A DNA stretch of 64,000 nucleotides. It comes from an uncultured Cyclobacteriaceae bacterium (GTDB lineage: Bacteria > Bacteroidota > Bacteroidia > Cytophagales > Cyclobacteriaceae). The stretch spans positions 124,001-188,000 of the forward strand of contig CAKZRQ010000057.1 of the NCBI GenBank assembly GCA_937146645.1, read 5' to 3'. A program made the translations under genes and the position numbers. This document shows, piece by piece, positions 1 through 46,914 of this stretch (position 1 is its first letter; the number at the start of each line of letters is the position of its first letter). Under the pieces are notes generated by a model. The model worked only from the letters and a program-made list of their open reading frames with translations. It made no database searches and was not told the origin of the DNA.

Positions 1-291
1 GATCAGGGAGAGGTAATGACGGAAATACCGGAGCTCATTGACCTGATTGAATTCATTGATGAGGATGAATTCTGGAGTGCTCAGATTACGGAAATAGAAG
101 TGGAATCAAAGAATGATATCAGGCTGTATCAGCAGGTGGGAAGACAGGTGGTGGAGTTAGGATCAGCCCTTGATTTGGAAGAAAAATTTGAAAAGATCGA
201 AGTCTTTTACAAGGAGATTTTGCCTCGTAAAGGCTGGAATGCATACAACCGAGTAAGCGTAAAATTTAAGAATCAAATCGTTTGTGAATAA
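1..291 (+). CDS. ftsQ: Cell division protein FtsQ, 3' end only
   Basis: The frame is open from base 1 and stops at 289-291, so only the C-terminal 96 residues are present; the real start lies upstream of the window. The fragment carries the typical FtsQ beta-domain tail (EDEFWSAQI, DIRLYQQVGRQVVELG, FYKEILPRKGW, ending KNQIVCE), which I recognise from Bacteroidota FtsQ. FtsQ is a single-pass membrane protein of the divisome that links early and late division proteins in the periplasm. It lies just upstream of ftsA and ftsZ, the usual end of the dcw cluster, which supports the call. The ATG at 16 is an internal methionine, not a start. Confidence 0.9.
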   Translation, partial: DQGEVMTEIPELIDLIEFIDEDEFWSAQITEIEVESKNDIRLYQQVGRQVVELGSALDLEEKFEKIEVFYKEILPRKGWNAYNRVSVKFKNQIVCE

Positions 292-301
292 TAGCAAGGG
301 A

Positions 302-1612
302 ATGGAAAATGACAAACTAATTGTAGGCCTCGACATAGGGACTACCAAAATCTGCGTAATCATTGGTCGTAAAAATACTTTCGGCAAGCTCGAGGTACTC
401 GGAATGGGTAGAGCTATCTCCGATGGAGTGAAGCGAGGAGTGGTTACGAATATCGATAAGACCGTTCATGCCATTGAAAAAGCTGTAGAGGAGGCATCCA
501 ATATGGCCGATGTGGATATAGCGGAGGTGATCGTCGGTATAGCAGGTCAGCACATTCAAAGTAAGATAGTTCATGGAAGCATCATGAGATCTCAAAACGA
601 TGAGGAGGTGACGGTGGAGGATGTGAGAAGATTGTCAGATGACATGGAGAATATTGTGGTACCTCCTGGTAATAGCATTATACATGTAATGCCTCAGGAT
701 TATACTGTGGATTATGAAGGAGGAATCAAAGACCCTGTAGGAATGGCAGGTGCCAGACTTGAGGCAGACTTTCACATTATTACCGCACAAACTGGCGCCA
801 TCAGCAACATCAACAAATGTGTCAGAAAGGCCAACCTTACTTCAGAGCAGCTTATCCTTGAACCCCTTGCAAGCTCGCTTTCAGTTTTGTCCGATGAGGA
901 AAAAGAAGCCGGTGTTTGTCTGGTTGATATAGGTGGTGGTACGACTGATATTGCAATTTTCTACGAGAATATTATTCGTCATACCGCTGTGATTCCTTTG
1001 GGTGGTAACATCATTACTTCTGATATCAAGGAAGGATGCATGGTCATGCAAAAGCAGGCTGAATTACTAAAAACAAGGTTTGGCAAAGCCATAGCCGAAG
1101 AGGCGAATCCAAATGAAATAGTATCCATTCCTGGATTAAGAAATAGACCTCCAAAGGAGATTTCGATTCGAAATCTTGCTTCTATTATTCAAGCAAGGAT
1201 GGAGGAGATTATCGAAATAGTCCAGAATGAAATGATCCAAAGCGGCCATTATAAAAAGTTGGCTGGTGGTATCGTCCTTACCGGTGGTGGTTCGCAGCTG
1301 CAGTTTATTTCACAGCTGTTCGAATACATGACCGGACTTGATACTCGTATCGGGCATCCAAATGAGCACTTAGGTAAGTCGGTCGTGGAGGATGTGAAAT
1401 CTCCAATGTACGCCACTTCAGTGGGTCTTGTACTCGCTGGCTTTAAAGCACTAGATGATCGGGAAGAAGGCTATCGGAAGCGAGTTGCTAATGCTGGCCC
1501 AAGTCAAAGAGAAACACGAAAGGAAATTATTTCAAGAGATATTTTCTCCAGCATCGGAGCAAAGCTGAAAAAGCTGATCAACGATGATATCGGAGATGAC
1601 CAAAACTACTAG
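302..1612 (+). CDS. ftsA: Cell division protein FtsA
   Basis: FtsA is the actin-like ATPase that tethers FtsZ filaments to the inner membrane. From the ATG at 302 the product has 436 residues, close to family length. The N-terminus has the actin-fold phosphate-1 loop (VGLDIGTTKICVIIGR), the middle has VCLVDIGGGTTDIAIF (phosphate 2), and the adenosine loop reads IVLTGGGSQL. The last about 25 residues (DIFSSIGAKLKKLINDD) form the expected membrane-binding amphipathic helix. A GTG at 284 would add six residues and overlap ftsQ; I prefer ATG 302 because family members begin with M-E-N-(D/E)-K. It lies 10 bases after ftsQ and 95 bases before ftsZ. Confidence 0.95.
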   Translation: MENDKLIVGLDIGTTKICVIIGRKNTFGKLEVLGMGRAISDGVKRGVVTNIDKTVHAIEKAVEEASNMADVDIAEVIVGIAGQHIQSKIVHGSIMRSQNDEEVTVEDVRRLSDDMENIVVPPGNSIIHVMPQDYTVDYEGGIKDPVGMAGARLEADFHIITAQTGAISNINKCVRKANLTSEQLILEPLASSLSVLSDEEKEAGVCLVDIGGGTTDIAIFYENIIRHTAVIPLGGNIITSDIKEGCMVMQKQAELLKTRFGKAIAEEANPNEIVSIPGLRNRPPKEISIRNLASIIQARMEEIIEIVQNEMIQSGHYKKLAGGIVLTGGGSQLQFISQLFEYMTGLDTRIGHPNEHLGKSVVEDVKSPMYATSVGLVLAGFKALDDREEGYRKRVANAGPSQRETRKEIISRDIFSSIGAKLKKLINDDIGDDQNY

Positions 1613-25490: not shown

Positions 25491-26438
25491 TTAACCTTGG
25501 TTCGCTAGAGTTCTTCGAATCTGATCGAGGTTAACTCTTATATCTTCGATTCCTTCCCACTCTCTATTCGGCTCACCATGTTCGATTCCAACGTAACCAT
25601 TGAAGCCTCGGGCTGTGACAATCTTAAGCATCCGCTCGTAATCTAGTGGATTCTCATTGCCTCGATCATCCCAAACGGTTGGCTTCAAAGAAACACCCTT
25701 AGCATAAGGCATTAATTCATCCACACCTCTGTATGAATCATAACTATAAATTCTATCACCCTCCGTATGCATTCTGAAGTTGCCAAAATCAGGAAGAGTA
25801 CCAGCTCTAGGGTGGGCGGTTTGCTCTATCAAGGAAGCCAGCCACTTACCATTTGATGAAAATCCGCCATGATTTTCTATCAGGACATTTATATCATAGC
25901 CTTCTGCGAATTCGCAAATTCTGCGGAAGGTAGAGCTACATATATCAATGGCCTCTTGTCTTTTGTCCTCATCTTCTGTCCAAGGTACCGCATGATAGGC
26001 GTTTACTCGAATAGAATGGCAACCTAAATACGCTGCAGCTTCCACCCATTTTTTGTGATTCTCAACGGTTTGTGCCCTGCCTTCGGAAGAAGCTTCACCC
26101 AGCATTCCTTCTCGATCTACCATGATCAATACGGACTCAACACCTTCACCATCTGCCCTAGTTTTCATCTCTCTTAGATAGCTCATGTCCTGAGCCTTAT
26201 CCATAAAGAATTGATTCACATATTCTACCGCATCTATTCCATTACTTTTTGCAAGTTTGGCAAAGTCCAGGTGGTCCATTCTTCCCGCAAAGAGAATCCG
26301 TTGCAGAGACCATTCTGCAAGTGAAATCTTAAATACATCTTCTGGCTTTTTAGCGCCAAAACTAAGGTTGGGTAAACCTAAGGTAAGAGCAGCAGCGGAC
26401 AAACCTGCAGTCTTTAAAAATTCTCTTCGATTGTTCAT
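25491..26438 (-). CDS. Tat-exported sugar phosphate isomerase/epimerase-like TIM-barrel protein
   Basis: The 315-residue product starts NNRREFLKTAGLSAAALTLG, a twin-arginine leader. The rest is an AP-endonuclease-2-like xylose isomerase TIM barrel: FKISLAEWSLQR, DAVEYVNQFF, VESVLIMVDREG, SIRVNAYHAVPW, INVLIENHGGF, TLPDFGNFRM and the C-terminal YVGIEHGEPNREWEGI. Glu/His residues at strand ends (IENHGG, IEHGE) fit a divalent metal site. Despite the family name, periplasmic members act on non-phosphorylated sugars. It lies 57 bases downstream of a Tat-exported Gfo/Idh/MocA protein gene, a familiar pair in Bacteroidota carbohydrate loci. Confidence 0.85.
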   Translation of the reverse strand: MNNRREFLKTAGLSAAALTLGLPNLSFGAKKPEDVFKISLAEWSLQRILFAGRMDHLDFAKLAKSNGIDAVEYVNQFFMDKAQDMSYLREMKTRADGEGVESVLIMVDREGMLGEASSEGRAQTVENHKKWVEAAAYLGCHSIRVNAYHAVPWTEDEDKRQEAIDICSSTFRRICEFAEGYDINVLIENHGGFSSNGKWLASLIEQTAHPRAGTLPDFGNFRMHTEGDRIYSYDSYRGVDELMPYAKGVSLKPTVWDDRGNENPLDYERMLKIVTARGFNGYVGIEHGEPNREWEGIEDIRVNLDQIRRTLANQG

Positions 26439-34830: not shown

Positions 34831-35043
34831 ATGGGTATCATTGTTAATCTTGATGTGATGATGGCCAAGAGAAAGGTTTCACTGAATGAGCTATCTGAAA
34901 AGGTTGGAGTTACCATTGCCAATCTTTCCATACTGAAAACAGGAAAGGCTAAAGCAGTTAGATTTAGTACTCTTGGGGCTATCTGTGAAGCCCTTGAATG
35001 CCAACCAGGTGATTTACTTGAATGGAGAGACGATCCAATTTAG
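34831..35043 (+). CDS. Small Cro/C1-type HTH regulator (YozG-like)
   Basis: The 70-residue product is a single helix-turn-helix domain: MGIIVNLDVMMAKRKVSLNELSEKVGVTIANLSILKTGKAKAVRFSTLGAICEALECQPGDLLEW spans the whole protein, with the characteristic CQPGDLL end. It is translated two bases after the DUF2975 gene, the usual arrangement. It probably represses its own operon. The stop overlaps the convergent eutBC stop by four bases. Start at ATG 34831 rather than the TTG two codons earlier. Confidence 0.9.
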   Translation: MGIIVNLDVMMAKRKVSLNELSEKVGVTIANLSILKTGKAKAVRFSTLGAICEALECQPGDLLEWRDDPI

Positions 35044-37385
35044 GTAGTGATTATCTCACGACTGGATTCCTCAAACAGCTCACCCAGAATCTTAACCGTG
35101 AGCTCTGAGGCTTCTTTTGGAGTCAAAGCCGTATCTGAAATTCCCGAAACCACACGGGATATATCATGATCTACATTGCCCTTTTGATTCCAGGTAGTAG
35201 ACTTCGCTACGCTTAGATAGGCGGAGAAATTATGATGCCCAGAACCCGGTCGTTCCCCTATTATATGAATGATTCCATGGGAGGCAGGATTCGAAGATTC
35301 CTTACCGAATAAGAATTCACCGCAGGCGTATCCGGCTCGAACACGACCATGTTGGATGAAAATATTGTCCTGACTCACTTTCAAACCTTGAGCTGTGAGT
35401 TTAGATCCTAATTCAGATAAATAAGGAGACAAATGACCTTCATCCATCAGAGCTCTGGAGTTTAATCCATCTGAAATAATGATCTGAACCTCGGGCATTT
35501 CTGCACCCCATTTTGAGCGAACCCGCTTTAGGGATTGTATGGATTCCTCGCTCAGGGATTCCCCTGATTCAGGATGATAGACATAATCCTTTCGATCTAT
35601 TGATTGAGTTTTTAATGCTACCGCAGAAGGAATAGTCTTCACAAAGCCCCTATCGACTTCAGTCCAAAGACTCACTTTTGCATCCTCATAAAGTCGCTTT
35701 ACTTCGGCTTCCAGCTTTGGCTCCAAATCCCAAATATTCTCTCCATAACCTTGTGCGATCGGCACCCCTCTACCTTGAATTTTTGCAATGGTAGCTTTTC
35801 CCTCGGCATATAGCACATCAAGAGATAGCTGATCATTCTTGGCCTGTCTGTATTTGGCATACACCCAAATCGGATCTCCAAAATGTTCCGTTGGTTTACC
35901 TTCTGAATCGATCACTTCCAATTCCTTGAAGAAATCCCACATGGCATCATTCACCTTGTATCCAAACTTCTCACGAATCTCCACATGATTATTGAAAGCT
36001 GTGGTCAGGTAGCTGAGCATTGGATCATTTTTGGTGGGCAAAGCCATCAGATACGCCGGATTGGCAGGCATAACTTCGCTGATGCACCAGTCTAAGTCCT
36101 CGAGACTCACATCCATGTGAAGCGTGGAACAAATATCCAGTCCGATGGTCAATCCATGAAGTTTACCCATTACCGTGTCTTCCAGGCAACAGCGAACCAG
36201 TTGTTCTTTATTCTTGAATACCTCAGGACCAATAAAGCCAGCCACATCATTGACATGAACCCAGGATTCATTTCCATCAATCTGCTCATTGATCTTTTGC
36301 TTCAAGGCCCTCAAGAATCCATACTTTCTGGACTCATGAAGAACCATGTCAAAGCCTTTGGCGTGGCCATTCGTTAGATCGGCACCTTGACCAGTTTCAG
36401 CATAAAAACCGTATTGACCATTACGCATGGCAGCATATTTCATCATTTTATCTATGCTGACATCGAAGGTCTTATTGGCATCCACAGTCCCTGCAATACT
36501 CTGAAACCAAACTCCTGTTTTTCCCGGGTTTAAAGCCTCCACTTCTGCCTGAACATCCACATGCGACAGCACGCAGTTAGGAATGGTTTCTTCCAACCCA
36601 AAGGTGGAAATGATATCGAAAAGAGAATTTTCAATGGCGGCAACAGATTCCACCTCACTGGATACGGGGTTAGTCCCCAGAACCACATCTCCAACGGCAT
36701 AGGACCATGCGTCGAAGACTTGCCAGTTGATATCGTCGAGATTATCAGTAGGAGAGTTCGGTTGAACTCTGGCCCCTATATATCCCTTGCTACCGATTTT
36801 ACTATTTGGGAGAGGGTTGAAGACTTTTTGACTCAAGCTTATCAGTTCCTCGTTGCTCATGAGCTTTACGAGGCACCCAATCACGTCACTGCTTAAGGAA
36901 GGCATGATGGCTTTAATTTCTTCCTCAGGCTTTTGAAGCATAAATTTTTTAAGCTCCTCAAAGGTCCAGGAGCTTAGCTCGGTATTTTGCTCAGTAGTGG
37001 ATTGGATTAGGTTTAGGATATCATCTTCAAAAATGATATGCTTATCGATATCTCCGATTTTGGTATTGGATAGGAGAGTTCTGGCATTATCCCTTGAATT
37101 ATCCGAATCCGCAGCAACATGGATCGTTTCATCCCCTTCTTTGAATTCATTCGCTGCTCCCAGAATCTTTCGATAGATGCTTATATCAAATTCACCATTC
37201 ACTCGATCGATGTAAGCGAAAATGTCTTCTGCAGATTCTGGTGTTTTGATACTTATGGAACCGGCAGATACCTGTTCTTTTCCTGTAAAGAAATTACATC
37301 CATTCAAGAGTAGAACGGAGCTGCCCATAAGGCTTGCCGCTTGAAGAAATTCCTTTCTATTCATCTTCTTCATACTGAATCCCAA
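35040..37385 (-). CDS. eutBC: Fused ethanolamine ammonia-lyase EutB-EutC with an export leader
   Basis: The 781-residue product is one polypeptide with the large (EutB, about residues 45-600) and small (EutC, about 630-775) subunits in that order. EutB landmarks are GYIGARVQPNSPTDN (201-215), AVGDVVLGTNPV (230-241), FYAETGQGADLTNG (327-340), HVNDVAGFIGPE (377-388) and IGLDICSTLHMD. EutC landmarks are QIIISDGLNSRAL, RVRAGYACGEFL, IHIIGERPGSGHHNFSAYL and SGISDTALTPKEA. The enzyme uses adenosylcobalamin to convert ethanolamine to acetaldehyde and ammonia. The N-terminus reads KKMNRKEFLQAASLMGSSVLLLNGC, resembling a Tat-like lipoprotein leader with Cys30, which is unexpected for this normally cytosolic enzyme. 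Start could also be 37373 or 37364. It is the third gene after a serine hydrolase and an FKBP gene. Confidence 0.88.
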   Translation of the reverse strand: MGFSMKKMNRKEFLQAASLMGSSVLLLNGCNFFTGKEQVSAGSISIKTPESAEDIFAYIDRVNGEFDISIYRKILGAANEFKEGDETIHVAADSDNSRDNARTLLSNTKIGDIDKHIIFEDDILNLIQSTTEQNTELSSWTFEELKKFMLQKPEEEIKAIMPSLSSDVIGCLVKLMSNEELISLSQKVFNPLPNSKIGSKGYIGARVQPNSPTDNLDDINWQVFDAWSYAVGDVVLGTNPVSSEVESVAAIENSLFDIISTFGLEETIPNCVLSHVDVQAEVEALNPGKTGVWFQSIAGTVDANKTFDVSIDKMMKYAAMRNGQYGFYAETGQGADLTNGHAKGFDMVLHESRKYGFLRALKQKINEQIDGNESWVHVNDVAGFIGPEVFKNKEQLVRCCLEDTVMGKLHGLTIGLDICSTLHMDVSLEDLDWCISEVMPANPAYLMALPTKNDPMLSYLTTAFNNHVEIREKFGYKVNDAMWDFFKELEVIDSEGKPTEHFGDPIWVYAKYRQAKNDQLSLDVLYAEGKATIAKIQGRGVPIAQGYGENIWDLEPKLEAEVKRLYEDAKVSLWTEVDRGFVKTIPSAVALKTQSIDRKDYVYHPESGESLSEESIQSLKRVRSKWGAEMPEVQIIISDGLNSRALMDEGHLSPYLSELGSKLTAQGLKVSQDNIFIQHGRVRAGYACGEFLFGKESSNPASHGIIHIIGERPGSGHHNFSAYLSVAKSTTWNQKGNVDHDISRVVSGISDTALTPKEASELTVKILGELFEESSREIITT

Positions 37386-37432: not shown

Positions 37433-38245
37433 TCAAATCTTTCCTTCCAGCTCTTCTTTCTTGTCTAGCAAAAAGCTTTCATCGGGTTCTTCTTCTAGTG
37501 CTTCATTCACTAAGGCTAGAGCCTTTTTGTAATCACCTTTGCCTTCATATGTAAGCAATAAGGCATATCGAAAAGTCTGGCGATCATTTAGATTGTTTGA
37601 TTCGCTAAGGAAATATTTGGACAGTTCTTCAGAATCCTCATATTTTTCTTCTTCGATCATGCCCTGAATGAAGCGAAACAGAGGTTCCAATTCCATATGA
37701 AAATCGACTACAGATTCAGTGCTTTTGATTTCTTCATAAGATGCGATGACTAAATCAACTCCTCCCTGTTCGTAAAAAGTGGCAAGGGTGTCTGCTAGTG
37801 GGATTTTTGGATCAGAGGCGGAAACAATTTCATATCGGTCATAGACCAAAGTTGCGTTCGGAGGAATCACATCGCCGGCTCCATCATCTCCATAAGCCAA
37901 TGAATCTGGGAGTATGGCCAAAACATTATCGCCTTCTCTCATGAGATAAGCCATTTCTTCAAAGCCAGAAATCACAGGATCATAGCCTAGGATAAATGAG
38001 AAAAGTGAGTCTGGGGCTTCATAAGAATTCCAAACTACCGAGTCTTCCACCATCAAACTTAGCTTGGTTTCAAGTCTTGAACCCTTTTCCGCTTTCTTGC
38101 CCTCACCTCTTTTAAGAAATACATATTGAAGACCGCTTTCAGTTTGTATGGTATCTCCGGTTTCAGCTTCTTCCATCGAACCTGATGGTTCGGAGCAAGC
38201 TGAAAGTAGAAATAGGCTTATCAGTAAGTATAGATTGAATTTCAT
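37433..38245 (-). CDS. FKBP-type peptidyl-prolyl isomerase lipoprotein
   Basis: The 270-residue product has a lipoprotein leader (LFLLSACSEPSG). The FKBP domain (about residues 35-140) shows ESGLQYVFLKRGEG, an atypical FILGYDPVISGFEEMAYLMREGD and the active-site end AYGDDGAGDVIPPNATLVYDRYEIV. The C-terminal half has TPR-like helices (YEDSEELSKYFLSE, GDYKKALALVNEALEEEPDES). It would assist folding of exported proteins in the periplasm. It lies 17 bases after the serine hydrolase gene and 47 bases before eutBC on the same strand, suggesting co-transcription. Confidence 0.87.
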   Translation of the reverse strand: MKFNLYLLISLFLLSACSEPSGSMEEAETGDTIQTESGLQYVFLKRGEGKKAEKGSRLETKLSLMVEDSVVWNSYEAPDSLFSFILGYDPVISGFEEMAYLMREGDNVLAILPDSLAYGDDGAGDVIPPNATLVYDRYEIVSASDPKIPLADTLATFYEQGGVDLVIASYEEIKSTESVVDFHMELEPLFRFIQGMIEEEKYEDSEELSKYFLSESNNLNDRQTFRYALLLTYEGKGDYKKALALVNEALEEEPDESFLLDKKEELEGKI

Positions 38246-38262
38246 AATCGAAATAAATTACC

Positions 38263-39642
38263 TTAAAACAGGTCATAACTAGGCCAGATGGATCTGGCTT
38301 GAATTTGCAACCTCATTATTTTTTCCATTTGCTGAAGTATAGATTCTATTGGGATAGTTCGGGTATTGGTTAGAATTACGAAGCTAAAGTTGTTATCCAT
38401 CCTAGAAATAACAGTGGAAGTTCCAGGCAAAGAACCGGAGAACCACCAGTTTTCATAACCAAAATATTCCCGCTCTATGAACGGAGTTCCGACTATATCC
38501 GGAACTCCAATTCCGCGATCAATGGTTACCAGAAAGCGGGCTAAATCAGATGCTGAGGCTATCCATCCCCCATGAGAATCCATTCTTGTTACATTCATTG
38601 AATATGGGCTAAAGCCTTCTTGTTCGTAATAAACTACCTCATTCTCAAATTTTTCTTCGAGTAAATTTCCGCCGATTCTCATGTCTGAGATTCCAGCCGG
38701 TCCTAACACTTCATCGAGCACATATCTTTCATAGTTTTTTCCTGAGACTTCCTCAATAATTCTCCCTAAGAGGCTATATCCGAAATTAGAGTAATAATAG
38801 GTTGTTCCTGGGCTGGAACTTAACCCTCTGTTGTCAAGAACTTCAGAAATAAGTTGGTCTTGAGTAAGGCTTGGGTCATCAAACATGATGTCATAAGGGT
38901 TATTAGTAAATCCGGATGTGTGATCCAACAGGTGCCTTACTTGAATTAATTTGATATTATCCGGGTATTCACCATCTCCATAGCGCTTACCTAAAACCCC
39001 ATTATCCCCAAAAACGGTCATATTTAGACTTAATTCTCCTTTCTGTGCAAGATTATATATGGCAATTGAAGTAATGGGCTTTGAAATACTGGCTATTCTA
39101 AAAAGTGAGTTATTCTTAACCTTAGTATTATTTTCCACATCACTGAGTCCTAGAGAACCCTGATAAACTAACTTTTCATTTCGAATTATAGCGAACTGTA
39201 ATCCAGGGACATTGAAATCTTCCATAAATGCCAATAAAGCTGCTTCCATTTCTTCGAATTTTGAGATAGAAGTAATCTCATATTCCCTTTTAGAACCGTC
39301 TTCAGCGACTACCTCAAAGTTTAACCTATTGTTGAAATCCACTCTAGAGGATCCTGATAGCATTTCCTCTCCCTGAAGAAAAAGTTTGGCTTTTTGAGAA
39401 ATGCCGAACTCTATTTTTATGCTTGAAAGATCCGCTCCTACTGGAAAGAAAATGGTGCCAGTATTCCGGTCCAATACAGCATTAGTCTTTATTGATCTTC
39501 CCTCAAAATCTACCTGAGCGCTTAGCTGAATCAGATTCTTTGAGCTTGAAGGAGGATCATTTGGTACGAGGTCGGGATTATCTGAATCACATGATATGGA
39601 TATCAGGATAATTGAAATAAGAAGGATAATTCGATACTTCAT
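38263..39642 (-). CDS. Serine hydrolase lipoprotein (class C beta-lactamase family) with N-terminal beta-domain
   Basis: The 459-residue product has a lipoprotein leader ending ILISISCDSDNPDL; the acidic residues after the cysteine resemble the surface-export signal of Bacteroidota lipoproteins. Residues about 35-125 form a small beta-domain (IFFPVGADLSSIKIEFGIS, EVVAEDGSKREYEITSI) like those of DUF5018-type repeats. The hydrolase domain has SxxK at Ser185-Lys188 (RIASISKPITS), the YxN motif in YYSNFGYSLLG and a late GSLPGTSTVI. The substrate is unknown. It is a paralogue in type, not a close copy, of the one at 23272. Confidence 0.85.
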   Translation of the reverse strand: MKYRIILLISIILISISCDSDNPDLVPNDPPSSSKNLIQLSAQVDFEGRSIKTNAVLDRNTGTIFFPVGADLSSIKIEFGISQKAKLFLQGEEMLSGSSRVDFNNRLNFEVVAEDGSKREYEITSISKFEEMEAALLAFMEDFNVPGLQFAIIRNEKLVYQGSLGLSDVENNTKVKNNSLFRIASISKPITSIAIYNLAQKGELSLNMTVFGDNGVLGKRYGDGEYPDNIKLIQVRHLLDHTSGFTNNPYDIMFDDPSLTQDQLISEVLDNRGLSSSPGTTYYYSNFGYSLLGRIIEEVSGKNYERYVLDEVLGPAGISDMRIGGNLLEEKFENEVVYYEQEGFSPYSMNVTRMDSHGGWIASASDLARFLVTIDRGIGVPDIVGTPFIEREYFGYENWWFSGSLPGTSTVISRMDNNFSFVILTNTRTIPIESILQQMEKIMRLQIQARSIWPSYDLF

Positions 39643-41910: not shown

Positions 41911-42327
41911 TTAGTTACCCAGAAGTGGGAGATGTTTAATCCTATGGTAATTCAAAGCCATAGCAATGCATTGACTGAGCTCTTTTTCAGGAATTTCTTC
42001 TTCCAGATTAAACCTGATTTCTCGGTTTCCTTCAAAACGGAATGTTTCTGGATAGAGTGCTCTGAAGGTTGGGACTAGCTTAGAAGTACACTTGAAAAAG
42101 ATGGAGAAGGAATCAGGATTCTTTTTTGTCCATGCTATACGAACCGTACTTCCTTTTTTTGCTAAAAAACTTGGCTCACCCCATCTCAAGGCTTCCTCGA
42201 CCTCACCAATTACTTTAGAATCATTGGCAGTTTTTAGAATCAATTCCCTCAGCTCAGAAATTCTCTGTTGAGCCTTTTCTGGATAGGATTGAATTACCTG
42301 CATGACTTCAATAGTGGGCTTCTTCAT
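41911..42327 (-). CDS. DUF1801 domain-containing protein
   Basis: The 138-residue product matches the DUF1801 (YdhG-like) fold, with helix-rich start VIQSYPEKAQQRISELRELILKTAND, the VEEALRWGEPSFL motif, AWTKKNPDSFSIFFKCTSKLVP and FRFEGNREIRFNLEEEIPEKEL. The function is unknown; relatives are iron-chaperone-like. The ATG overlaps the stop of the upstream aminotransferase gene in a TAATG junction, so the two are translationally coupled. Confidence 0.85.
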   Translation of the reverse strand: MKKPTIEVMQVIQSYPEKAQQRISELRELILKTANDSKVIGEVEEALRWGEPSFLAKKGSTVRIAWTKKNPDSFSIFFKCTSKLVPTFRALYPETFRFEGNREIRFNLEEEIPEKELSQCIAMALNYHRIKHLPLLGN

Positions 42328-43595
42328 TAGGATTTCGCTATTTCTTTCAAGGCTTTTCCAAGCTTTCTTATGTCCTCAGTTTGAGTGTATAAACCAGGAG
42401 TCACACGAATGCAACCCTTTTCACCGAGGACTCTCGCGACGGTAAAAATGCCATGTCTGTCCAGTAATTCGTTTTCCACTTCCTTATCAGTTTTTCCTTC
42501 GATTCGAAAAGAGGCAATACCACAAGATAGATTTGAGTCGGTCGGTGTGATCACCTCAATAGCGTCACTATTCGCCACCTCATCAATCCAAATTTCTTTG
42601 AGTAATTGCATTCGTTCCTGAATCCGATTAATCCCGACCATCTCGTGAAAATCAATGGCATGAGGAATGCTCAATTGCACAGCAAAAGGAGTGGTACCGA
42701 TATGTCCTAGCCTTCGGATATTTCCATCCTTTGGATCCTTATCTCCGAAAAGTGATTCAAGTTCCTGAATACGATCTTTCTTTACATATAGCAGACCTGC
42801 TCCAATCGGATTGCCCATCCATTTATGAAGATTCATCCCTACGAAATCTGAATCCATATCCTTGATGTCAAAAGGAATATGTCCTAATGCATGAGCGGAG
42901 TCCGTAATGGTGTCTATTCCTCTTGACTTAGCCATGACGGTGATTTCTTTGACAGGAGTAATTAAGCCTGTGATATTCGAAACCTGAGTGAGGAGAATTA
43001 CCTTGGTGTTTGGAGTGATTTGATCCTCATAGGCTTGAATAATTTCTTCCGGACTCTTAGGTAGCAAAGCCATTTCAAATGGTTTGACTTTGAGCTTACC
43101 TCTTTGCTCCAGCATCTGAAAAGTTTCTATCATGCTGTAGTAATCGAGTTGGTTTACGATGACTTCATCTCCTTCTTTCCAGGGATAACCTTGAATAGCA
43201 ATGTTCAATGCTTCAGTGGCATTTCGGGTGATCAGGATTTCACCTTCTTCCACTTTTAGAAACTCCTCAATTCTTGAAATGACCGACCTGAATTTTTCAG
43301 GGAAAGTTCTTCTAGCGAACAAAGCTCCTTCTTCGTTGACCTGATTCACATAGGATTCATAAGCCTCTAAAACTGGTTTGGGCTGGATACCAAAAAATCC
43401 GTTTTCCAGATTGATAAAATCCGGAGAAAGCTTGTAGTTCTTTTTAGCCAGGGAAGTCCAAAATTTCTCTTCAGGATCTACCAAGGAGCTTTCTGAAATG
43501 GCCGTTGTAGCAAATGCATTTCCCGAGAAGGGTATGCTGGAAAGGGCTACAGAACTACCGAGTACCTTAAGAAATTCTTTTCTGGAATATTTCAT
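42327..43595 (-). CDS. Exported class V aminotransferase-fold PLP enzyme
   Basis: The 422-residue product begins with a Tat-type leader (SRKEFLKVLGSSVALS). The PLP domain has LITRNATEALNIAIQGY, VIVNQLDYYSMIETF, the cofactor-base Asp in GIDTITDSAHALGHIPFDI and the Lys in MNLHKWMGNPIGAGLLYV. The C-terminal half ends in RVLGEKGCIRVTPGLYTQTEDI. The type resembles isopenicillin-N-epimerase or cysteine desulfurase-like enzymes. Export of a PLP enzyme is uncommon but occurs in Bacteroidota with Tat signals, because cofactors are loaded in the cytoplasm. It diverges from the GMC oxidoreductase gene. The substrate is unknown. Confidence 0.85.
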   Translation of the reverse strand: MKYSRKEFLKVLGSSVALSSIPFSGNAFATTAISESSLVDPEEKFWTSLAKKNYKLSPDFINLENGFFGIQPKPVLEAYESYVNQVNEEGALFARRTFPEKFRSVISRIEEFLKVEEGEILITRNATEALNIAIQGYPWKEGDEVIVNQLDYYSMIETFQMLEQRGKLKVKPFEMALLPKSPEEIIQAYEDQITPNTKVILLTQVSNITGLITPVKEITVMAKSRGIDTITDSAHALGHIPFDIKDMDSDFVGMNLHKWMGNPIGAGLLYVKKDRIQELESLFGDKDPKDGNIRRLGHIGTTPFAVQLSIPHAIDFHEMVGINRIQERMQLLKEIWIDEVANSDAIEVITPTDSNLSCGIASFRIEGKTDKEVENELLDRHGIFTVARVLGEKGCIRVTPGLYTQTEDIRKLGKALKEIAKS

Positions 43596-46017: not shown

Positions 46018-46914
46018 TCAGTAAATCTCCAGAGAGTTTTTGGAAGGAAGGTGATGTACTGGTAGTTCTGGGTAATTTTTTCGTATCCAATCTGCCATAA
46101 AAGCGCCACCACCTTCTTCACTGGCAGAGTGACCCGTAGCGATGTAAGAGATTTCCTTTCCCATTTCGTTGGCGTTTCGAACATATTCCGGTGTTTCCCA
46201 TTCCGGTGCTTCTCCCACGATTATGACATCCGGATTTTCCTTCATGGCCATTTCTATTTGCCTTCTGCCACCGATAGCTCCTGGAAGTAATAGCACCTTT
46301 TCTATGGGTTGATTTAAATCACCCACATACCTCATGGCAGGTACATCCAGACGGTCCTTCATGTGATCAATTAATCCCTTCAAGGTCGTTTTTGGGATGT
46401 TTAGAACGGCATTTTGCTTGTAATAATCATTCCAGCCCAGCTGATTGACCACACCGATTTGAATTCCGTCCACCTTCATGGAGTGGATATAGTCATGGTT
46501 TCTCCAGAGTGCTATTTGATTCTGTTCTAAAAGATCGCGCTTAAACTTAAAGACATCATCTTCTTCCAGCCAATCAGTCTCATCCAAATGATTATAAAAA
46601 GTAGGTTCATGAGCAATGATGAAATTTGCGCCAAGTTCTATGCTTTTCTGAATGACTTTTACTGTTGCGAACATGGTGGTTACCACACCTGTCACTTTTT
46701 GATCTCGGGTCCCGGATTTAAGTGTATCCACAGTTTGAGCGAATGGTGCATGGGGTATTCGCTGAATGAAGCGATCCATAATGTCTCCCACGGTCAAGTC
46801 GTCATTTGCGAAAGCAGAAAAGATGGGCATTGAACTAGAGGTCAAAGTTGCTCCCGACCAAAGAGCTGATTTTAAAAGAAACTCGCGTCTCGAGTTGTAT
46901 GATCTATTTTTCAT
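46018..46914 (-). CDS. Exported Nif3-like dinuclear metal-centre protein
   Basis: The 298-residue product starts with a Tat-type leader (SRREFLLKSALWSGATLTSS). The mature part matches the Nif3/DUF34 fold: VTGVVTTMFATVKVIQKSIELGANFIIAHEPTFYNHLDE, where the HEP and later HxNxD-type (LWRNHDYIH) residues belong to the di-metal site, and the C-terminal VIIVGEAPEWETPEYVRNANEMGKEISYIATGHSASE, whose final HSASEEGG is also typical. Nif3-like proteins are usually cytosolic, and their biochemical role is unclear. Its start overlaps the end of the MscS gene by four bases. Confidence 0.85.
   Translation of the reverse strand: MKNRSYNSRREFLLKSALWSGATLTSSSMPIFSAFANDDLTVGDIMDRFIQRIPHAPFAQTVDTLKSGTRDQKVTGVVTTMFATVKVIQKSIELGANFIIAHEPTFYNHLDETDWLEEDDVFKFKRDLLEQNQIALWRNHDYIHSMKVDGIQIGVVNQLGWNDYYKQNAVLNIPKTTLKGLIDHMKDRLDVPAMRYVGDLNQPIEKVLLLPGAIGGRRQIEMAMKENPDVIIVGEAPEWETPEYVRNANEMGKEISYIATGHSASEEGGGAFMADWIRKNYPELPVHHLPSKNSLEIY

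Follow-up and report, generated by a model that had tools for sequence, protein, structure and literature searches.

A predicted one-chain ethanolamine ammonia-lyase with an export leader in an uncultured Cyclobacteriaceae bacterium, and related proteins in several phyla

A fused EutB-EutC gene with a retained active site

We analysed a 64,000-nucleotide stretch of contig CAKZRQ010000057.1 (the window) from an uncultured Cyclobacteriaceae bacterium, in which one reverse-strand gene encodes both halves of an ethanolamine ammonia-lyase behind an N-terminal leader. The coding sequence occupies 35040-37373 (-), stop included, and gives 777 residues from its likely ATG; the open reading frame (ORF) extends to a TTG at 37385 (35040-37385, -), from which it would give 781. 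The ATG at 37373 is the more likely true start because three relatives (L014, L018 and L074) begin with MKKI[ST]RK at the equivalent position, and the protein would then open with MKKMNRKEFLQ...LLLNGC. A 781-residue EutB-EutC fusion had been described in a first-pass annotation of this DNA, and the description was borne out: a single ORF holds the two halves in the order EutB then EutC, with no separate chains, and both Pfam domains score above their cut-offs. The EutB domain lies at 35886-37175 (-) (residues 71-500 in TTG numbering; 444.5 bits against a cut-off of 25) and the EutC domain at 35067-35750 (-) (residues 546-773; 107.6 against 25.8). The protein passed the NCBIfam EutB model (585.9 against 554) and did not reach the EutC equivalog (72.5 against 230), so that the EutC half is divergent. 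Its sequence matches in the PDB were the EutB chains of Listeria and E. coli, together with EutC chains, and no second EutB gene was found in its genome. The leader (MKKMNRKEFLQAASLMGSSVLLLNGC, 37296-37373, -) combines a motif of the twin-arginine translocation (Tat) kind, R-K-x-F-L, a hydrophobic core and a lipobox, LNGC within LLLNGC, whose cysteine is Cys26. This column holds Cys in only 25 of 80 aligned rows, and the lipobox is therefore not a general trait of the family.

Five residues that we take to be the ethanolamine contacts (R160, Q162, N193, E287 and D362 in E. coli numbering) were invariant in 80/80 fused proteins and in 11/11 ordinary EutB proteins from Bacteroidota. The fused rows of this alignment were the window protein, L093 and 78 of the 80 search loci, the fragments L073 and L079 being omitted, and the numbering was taken from alignment to PDB 3abo. 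The first four residues are Arg206, Gln208, Asn239 and Glu330 of the first-pass annotation, whose retention was thus upheld, and D362, position 417 in the window protein, is retained as well. S247 and F329 were likewise kept in 100% of the fused EutB rows. Among the EutB columns invariant in ordinary proteins, 72/145 were also conserved in the fused rows (identical residue in at least 90%), and the corresponding comparison for EutC (79 fused rows, without L069, which is cut short, and 9 ordinary proteins) gave 21/43. An AlphaFold2 model of the window protein, built from 52 family sequences, had a mean pLDDT (predicted local distance difference test) of 88.6 and fell below 50 only at residues 1-3 and 21-37, in or after the leader. 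Using Foldseek, its EutB part matched 3abo_A with a template-modelling (TM) score of 0.88 by target length (root-mean-square deviation 2.4) and its EutC part matched 3abo_B with a TM score of 0.68 by target length. By its two domains, substrate residues and predicted fold, the gene is a member of the ethanolamine ammonia-lyase superfamily.

The E. coli and Salmonella enzyme (3abo) agrees with the window protein in the folds of EutB and EutC, in their order and in the substrate residues, and the same adenosylcobalamin (AdoCbl) chemistry would be expected of the window protein. The E. coli and Salmonella enzyme consists, however, of two chains, whereas the window protein is one chain with an export leader, from a genome without full-length EutA or shell genes, and EutB identity to 3abo is about 30%. 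The fused clade also has cysteines of its own, at position 395 in 78/80 rows and at positions 396 and 430 in 80/80; the columns of Cys395 and Cys430 are A344 and L379 in 11/11 ordinary EutB proteins. We make no claim for disulfides as an adaptation to export, since a leaderless fusion, L138, also has Cys396 and Cys430 (by eye).

Leaders and descent of the fused proteins

A search for homologues, which the first-pass annotation had called for, found close relatives in at least 80 loci, so that the fusion is not a stray one. The related-locus search gave at least 83 relatives, of which 80 were kept, and further loci were added from genome searches; with the added rows they span Bacteroidota, Balneolota, Planctomycetota, Myxococcota, Thermodesulfobacteriota and Pseudomonadota. 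Several cultured Bacteroidota are among the carriers, so direct testing is possible. The survey of leaders covered 114 distinct sequences, fragments among them, with identity to the window protein of 45% or more, a set that excludes more distant relatives, among them the leaderless L130, L138 and L146. Seven N-termini were unreadable (L067, L068 and L002, cut at the 5' end, were set aside and four fragments were dropped), and 106 of the 107 readable ones carried a leader. These comprised 38 Tat-type leaders with an R-R pair, 29 with R-K (window protein included), 5 variants and 34 leaders of the general secretory (Sec) type, many of the last showing -3/-1 motifs (for example AGA↓V, ASA↓V and SA↓I). 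Manual correction of the automatic classes moved L035 and one L183 protein from Tat-type R-K to Sec and recovered seven Sec leaders and one R-K leader (L010) from rows classed as lacking a core.

The possibility that the fusion is a widespread cytosolic form whose start codon was mis-set fails for this clade, in which leaders are conserved and L014, L018 and L074 share the ATG, though separate leaderless fusions do exist. A leader arising by chance was also rejected: the combination of a Tat-like motif with a hydrophobic stretch after it was present in 32/38 EutBC ORFs and in 13/440 other ORFs of the same DNA, in a control that took one EutBC ORF from each of 37 Bacteroidota loci plus the window, sorted by eye from the ORF list. 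Taken together, the comparisons strongly support export of the fused lyase.

EutC of microcompartment systems has an N-terminal targeting peptide, and the extension could by analogy be an encapsulation-type peptide, or a hydrophobic anchor, on an enzyme that stays in the cytoplasm. We regard this as highly improbable, given that two unrelated leader types, with -3/-1 cleavage motifs in the Sec forms or with lipoboxes, have the form of export signals. In addition, the window genome had no match to the microcompartment shell family PF00936, whereas two genomes with ordinary EutB (G132 and G062) did, which led us to reject a microcompartment enzyme for this genome; shell genes occurred in 3/34 exported-type genomes, each time on contigs other than that of the lyase.

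An EutB-domain tree was built from 100 of 122 extracted rows after thinning of near-copies (quick IQ-TREE run, with SH-aLRT, the Shimodaira-Hasegawa-like approximate likelihood ratio test, as sole support). The exported proteins, together with L048, formed one clade of 76 rows (SH-aLRT 99) through which the Tat-type rows were scattered, while 18 Sec-type rows fell in a single 20-row subclade (SH-aLRT 100) with two Tat-type rows, L055 and L108. The position of these two means that the Sec label needs two changes, and the simplest reading, which depends on the root, would be one change from Tat to Sec and one back with export retained throughout. The best reading of the tree and the leaders is a widespread exported branch of ethanolamine ammonia-lyase across several phyla.

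The leaderless fusions (L120, L121, L123, L130, L138 and L146) share with the window protein EutB and EutC in one chain. L120, L121 and L123, of about 705 residues, formed their own set (SH-aLRT 100), which grouped with ordinary EutB, and L130, on a long branch, paired with an ordinary EutB; on this tree the fusion arose more than once. L138, whose start codon is unclear, neighboured the exported clade on a long branch with an unsure placement. No leader was seen in any of these fusions, and L130 and L146 also differ from the window gene in adjoining EutA (L130 EutH as well).

EutB was found in 13 of 392 Bacteroidota genomes, as 11 ordinary genes (frames of 453-486 residues) and 2 fused ones including the window's own, and in none of the genomes listed from the same genus (3) or the same family (5); this absence suggests that the gene was gained by transfer. 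The loci came from 25 genomes with 29 EutB matches in total; every match lay in a long frame (705-1107 residues), none was of ordinary size, and two were the leaderless L130 and L146. Judged by score, the exported form was present in 19/395 genomes of one phylum sample, one of them as a fragment, and in 14/136 genomes of one order, with a fragment in a fifteenth.

The first-pass annotation contrasted the fusion with the normal two polypeptides and held that its location would be new. The fusion itself is already in print: the accessible part of a 2012 study of Pelobacter carbinolicus describes fused eutBC genes in a cluster with B12 genes, aldehyde:ferredoxin oxidoreductase (AOR) and transport genes, in strains that grow on ethanolamine and a species without eutA (PMC3543383). 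That part of the source does not mention export of the lyase, and searches of open PMC papers found no report of an exported ethanolamine ammonia-lyase, so the extracytoplasmic location was not found in print there. The P. carbinolicus eutBC1 and eutBC2 products resemble the window protein in being fused with no eutA reported, and belong to the same clade if our genome G913 is P. carbinolicus; G913 carries two fused genes, sharing 70.8% identity, within one cluster that includes a CobA/BtuR-type adenosyltransferase. Both copies have Sec-type leaders, whereas that of the window protein is Tat-like, and the large B12, AOR and transport cluster contrasts with the orphan window gene.

Export route and substrate

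We propose that the window gene probably encodes a one-chain, AdoCbl-dependent ethanolamine ammonia-lyase acting outside the cytoplasm. The observed basis is the fusion, the conserved leader, the retained active site, the predicted fold, the single clade, the presence of TatC and of corrinoid-uptake-type genes, and the absence of full-length EutA and of a shell. In this Bacteroidota genome the lyase would fold and take up its cobamide in the cytoplasm, cross the membrane in folded form by Tat and be held as a lipoprotein in the periplasm, where it would split ethanolamine into acetaldehyde and ammonium, both of which would then enter the cell. We infer four of these steps: Tat over Sec, cofactor loading before export, activity on ethanolamine and the fate of the products. 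The first-pass annotation had likewise suggested cytoplasmic loading followed by folded export; comparison strongly supports the export, the Tat route is only likely, and the scheme cannot hold for the Sec-type relatives, which must gain AdoCbl outside if Sec exports them, as it usually does, in unfolded form. Ethanolamine breakdown is usually placed in the cytosol or in microcompartments, and a widespread exported lyase would imply that it may proceed outside the cytoplasm in many bacteria, with a radical B12 reaction and its toxic aldehyde product on the far side of the membrane. Such a lyase would also raise the question of how AdoCbl is loaded and maintained without the ATP-driven EutA.

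Judged by its leader, the window protein is likely to take the Tat route. Against the Tat consensus context S-R-R-x-F-L-K it retains the phenylalanine, and the genome encodes TatC (212 bits). A pocket for this phenylalanine is described in the accessible part of PMC13323110. According to the available portion of PMC1182353 on E. coli Tat, either arginine of SufI can be replaced by lysine, with slower transport, and the second arginine of TorA by lysine, asparagine or glutamine. The Tat-type lipoprotein leader of the first-pass annotation stands as an export leader with core and lipobox, and its Tat assignment is weaker, the R-K pair making this route probable rather than certain.

Several observations weigh against the proposal. 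The leader motif, NRKEFLQ, has R-K in place of R-R, and lysine changes in Tat signals are poorly tolerated according to the accessible part of PMC5539426. Five family leaders are variants, with R-D (L004), R-E (L019), R-N (L015), R-Q (L012) or a shifted R-R, of which R-D and R-E fall outside the substitutions listed in the available portion of PMC1182353. L048 (7890-10166, from a Cytophagaceae metagenome-assembled genome) has both domains and a complete N-terminus with no recognisable leader, and is nested within the exported clade. That clade stands on a very long branch, so that a shift to another substrate is conceivable even with the contact residues kept. The Bacteroidota loci show no conserved ethanolamine, aldehyde or B12 neighbours. 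Finally, full-length EutA is also missing from 9/11 Bacteroidota genomes with ordinary EutB, which weakens its absence as a mark of export.

The first of these points bears on the route. Sec and Tat signals overlap (PMC5539426, accessible part), the R-K pair plus lipobox is compatible with Sec and signal peptidase II, and 34 relatives have plain Sec-type leaders; the window protein could then be a lipoprotein exported unfolded by Sec and loaded with AdoCbl in the periplasm, as its Sec-type relatives must be. We consider this unlikely, since R-x-x-F-[LIV] keeps its register in almost every Bacteroidota leader and R-R forms occur in Bacteroidota, Planctomycetota and Myxococcota.

A changed substrate, such as choline, 2-aminopropanol or another amino alcohol, in a family that is nonetheless exported appears similarly improbable. 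Besides the very long branch that separates the exported clade from ordinary EutB, such a change would fit the EutC half, whose score misses the equivalog cut-off by a wide margin both in the window protein and in 4/4 exported relatives scanned. It would also fit the two paralogues of P. carbinolicus, for which separate ethanolamine and choline lyases have been suggested as a possibility (PMC3543383, accessible part). Against it stand the contacts invariant in 80/80 proteins and the growth of P. carbinolicus strains on ethanolamine, for which the same text names no other ethanolamine lyase. As to the source of the ethanolamine, the first-pass annotation had suggested phospholipid in the periplasm; nothing seen beside the window gene pointed to it.

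Reductive dehalogenases (RdhA) are described as corrinoid enzymes with Tat signals in the accessible part of PMC4771760, and the window protein would, on our proposal, resemble them in both respects. Their fold and chemistry are unrelated, and they are not known to perform an AdoCbl radical rearrangement.

Other Tat-type leaders were present in the window, with R-R at 25491, 26496, 45423 and 46018 and R-K at 42327. The frame at 46018-46914 (-) encodes a DUF34/NIF3 protein, a family generally considered cytosolic, with the leader NSRREFLLKS. That at 42327-43595 (-) encodes a protein of class-V aminotransferase fold whose leader, SRKEFLK, is the second R-K leader of the window; it scored below the cut-off of the model for periplasmic PvdN (132.8 against 650).

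Cofactor supply and gene neighbourhoods

No full-length EutA was found in the window genome by a PF06277 search. The lone match (29.4 against a cut-off of 27, covering 139-216 of 475 positions) is the ftsA gene at window 284-1612, which scored 155.9 bits with Pfam FtsA, and we take the other short EutA matches, many of them above the Pfam cut-off, to be FtsA-like in the same way. Full-length EutA occurred in 3/30 exported-type genomes (G394, G395 and G415), adjoining a leaderless fusion in G394 (L130) and G415 (L146) and on another contig in G395. These leaderless fusions lie directly beside EutA at L130:1332-6480 (also with EutH) and L146:4894-8582, in assemblies that also hold the exported form, so that a cytosolic and an exported lyase perhaps occur in one cell.

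The window genome encodes two adenosyltransferases of the PduO type, and a cobalamin riboswitch in it is flanked by Peripla_BP_2/FecCD genes on one side and a TonB-receptor gene on the other. Among the genomes examined, a PduO-type adenosyltransferase was present in 18/19 of the Tat type, 1/11 of the Sec type and 10/11 with ordinary EutB. Two similar blocks surround such a gene in the window's own assembly (L148, G000:C26, and L149, G000:C20; one on an 8.4-kb contig), either because the block is duplicated or because the assembly contains a second strain.

Neighbours were counted at 26 loci, representing 18 distinct Sec-type places (L129 repeats L039) and 7 Tat-type or leaderless ones. Around the Sec-type places we found an outer-membrane-like protein (11/18; named Gcw_chp by Pfam in 4/5 scanned), AOR (8/18, and one Tat-type locus, L141; 4/4 scanned were confirmed) and a solute-binding protein of the SBP_bac_6/8 families (7/18). 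BtuC-, BtuF- and BtuD-like genes lay near 6, 5 and 4 of the 18, and in L038 genes for CbiG, a tetrapyrrole methylase and CbiJ lie upstream. By these neighbours, the Sec-type enzyme is tied to corrinoid supply and aldehyde oxidation.

Clustering also placed near 9/18 of the Sec-type places, usually directly downstream of EutBC, a hydrophobic protein of 260-330 residues, here called F1 (for example L038:10213-11196, L050:8868-9674 and L128:10096-11064). F1 had no Pfam match in 5/5 members scanned and no NCBIfam match in the one member scanned. Genome-wide it was found in 18/23 Sec-type genomes (a fragment in G457), the five without it being G394, G395, G399, G576 and G788, in 0/23 Tat-type genomes, the window's own included, and in 0/8 genomes where no exported form was found. 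The two Tat-type members within the Sec subclade (G690 and G410) also lack it. This association is not independent evidence, because the Sec forms are one subclade. The neighbours bear on Sec export of the window protein in both directions: the Btu-like genes would suit periplasmic loading, whereas the restriction of F1 to Sec-type genomes speaks against the window protein sharing that route. A role in ethanolamine or choline uptake has been proposed for F1 (PMC3543383, accessible part), and a cofactor role is our speculation. It is conceivable, though we hold it doubtful, that Sec-type enzymes are exported as unfolded apoenzymes and gain intact AdoCbl in the periplasm with F1 as a dedicated cofactor exporter or loader, the Tat-type enzymes carrying their cofactor with them and needing no F1. 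If so, coenzyme-B12 radical catalysis would be assembled outside the cytoplasm. A widespread exported lyase would make F1 a candidate in cofactor delivery.

No neighbour family recurred in more than 6/79 loci across all phyla, which led us to reject a conserved operon in Bacteroidota, and no conserved partner gene was found among the 79 loci for Planctomycetota and the other Tat-type lineages. Upstream of the window gene on the same strand lie an FKBP-type peptidyl-prolyl isomerase (37433-38245, -) and a serine beta-lactamase-fold protein (38263-39642, -), both with lipoprotein-like leaders. When the relatives' neighbours are clustered, the 28 largest clusters do not include the isomerase, nor is the beta-lactamase-fold protein in any of the 28 largest clusters holding window genes. 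The isomerase gene ends 59 nucleotides upstream of eutBC and is possibly co-transcribed with it.

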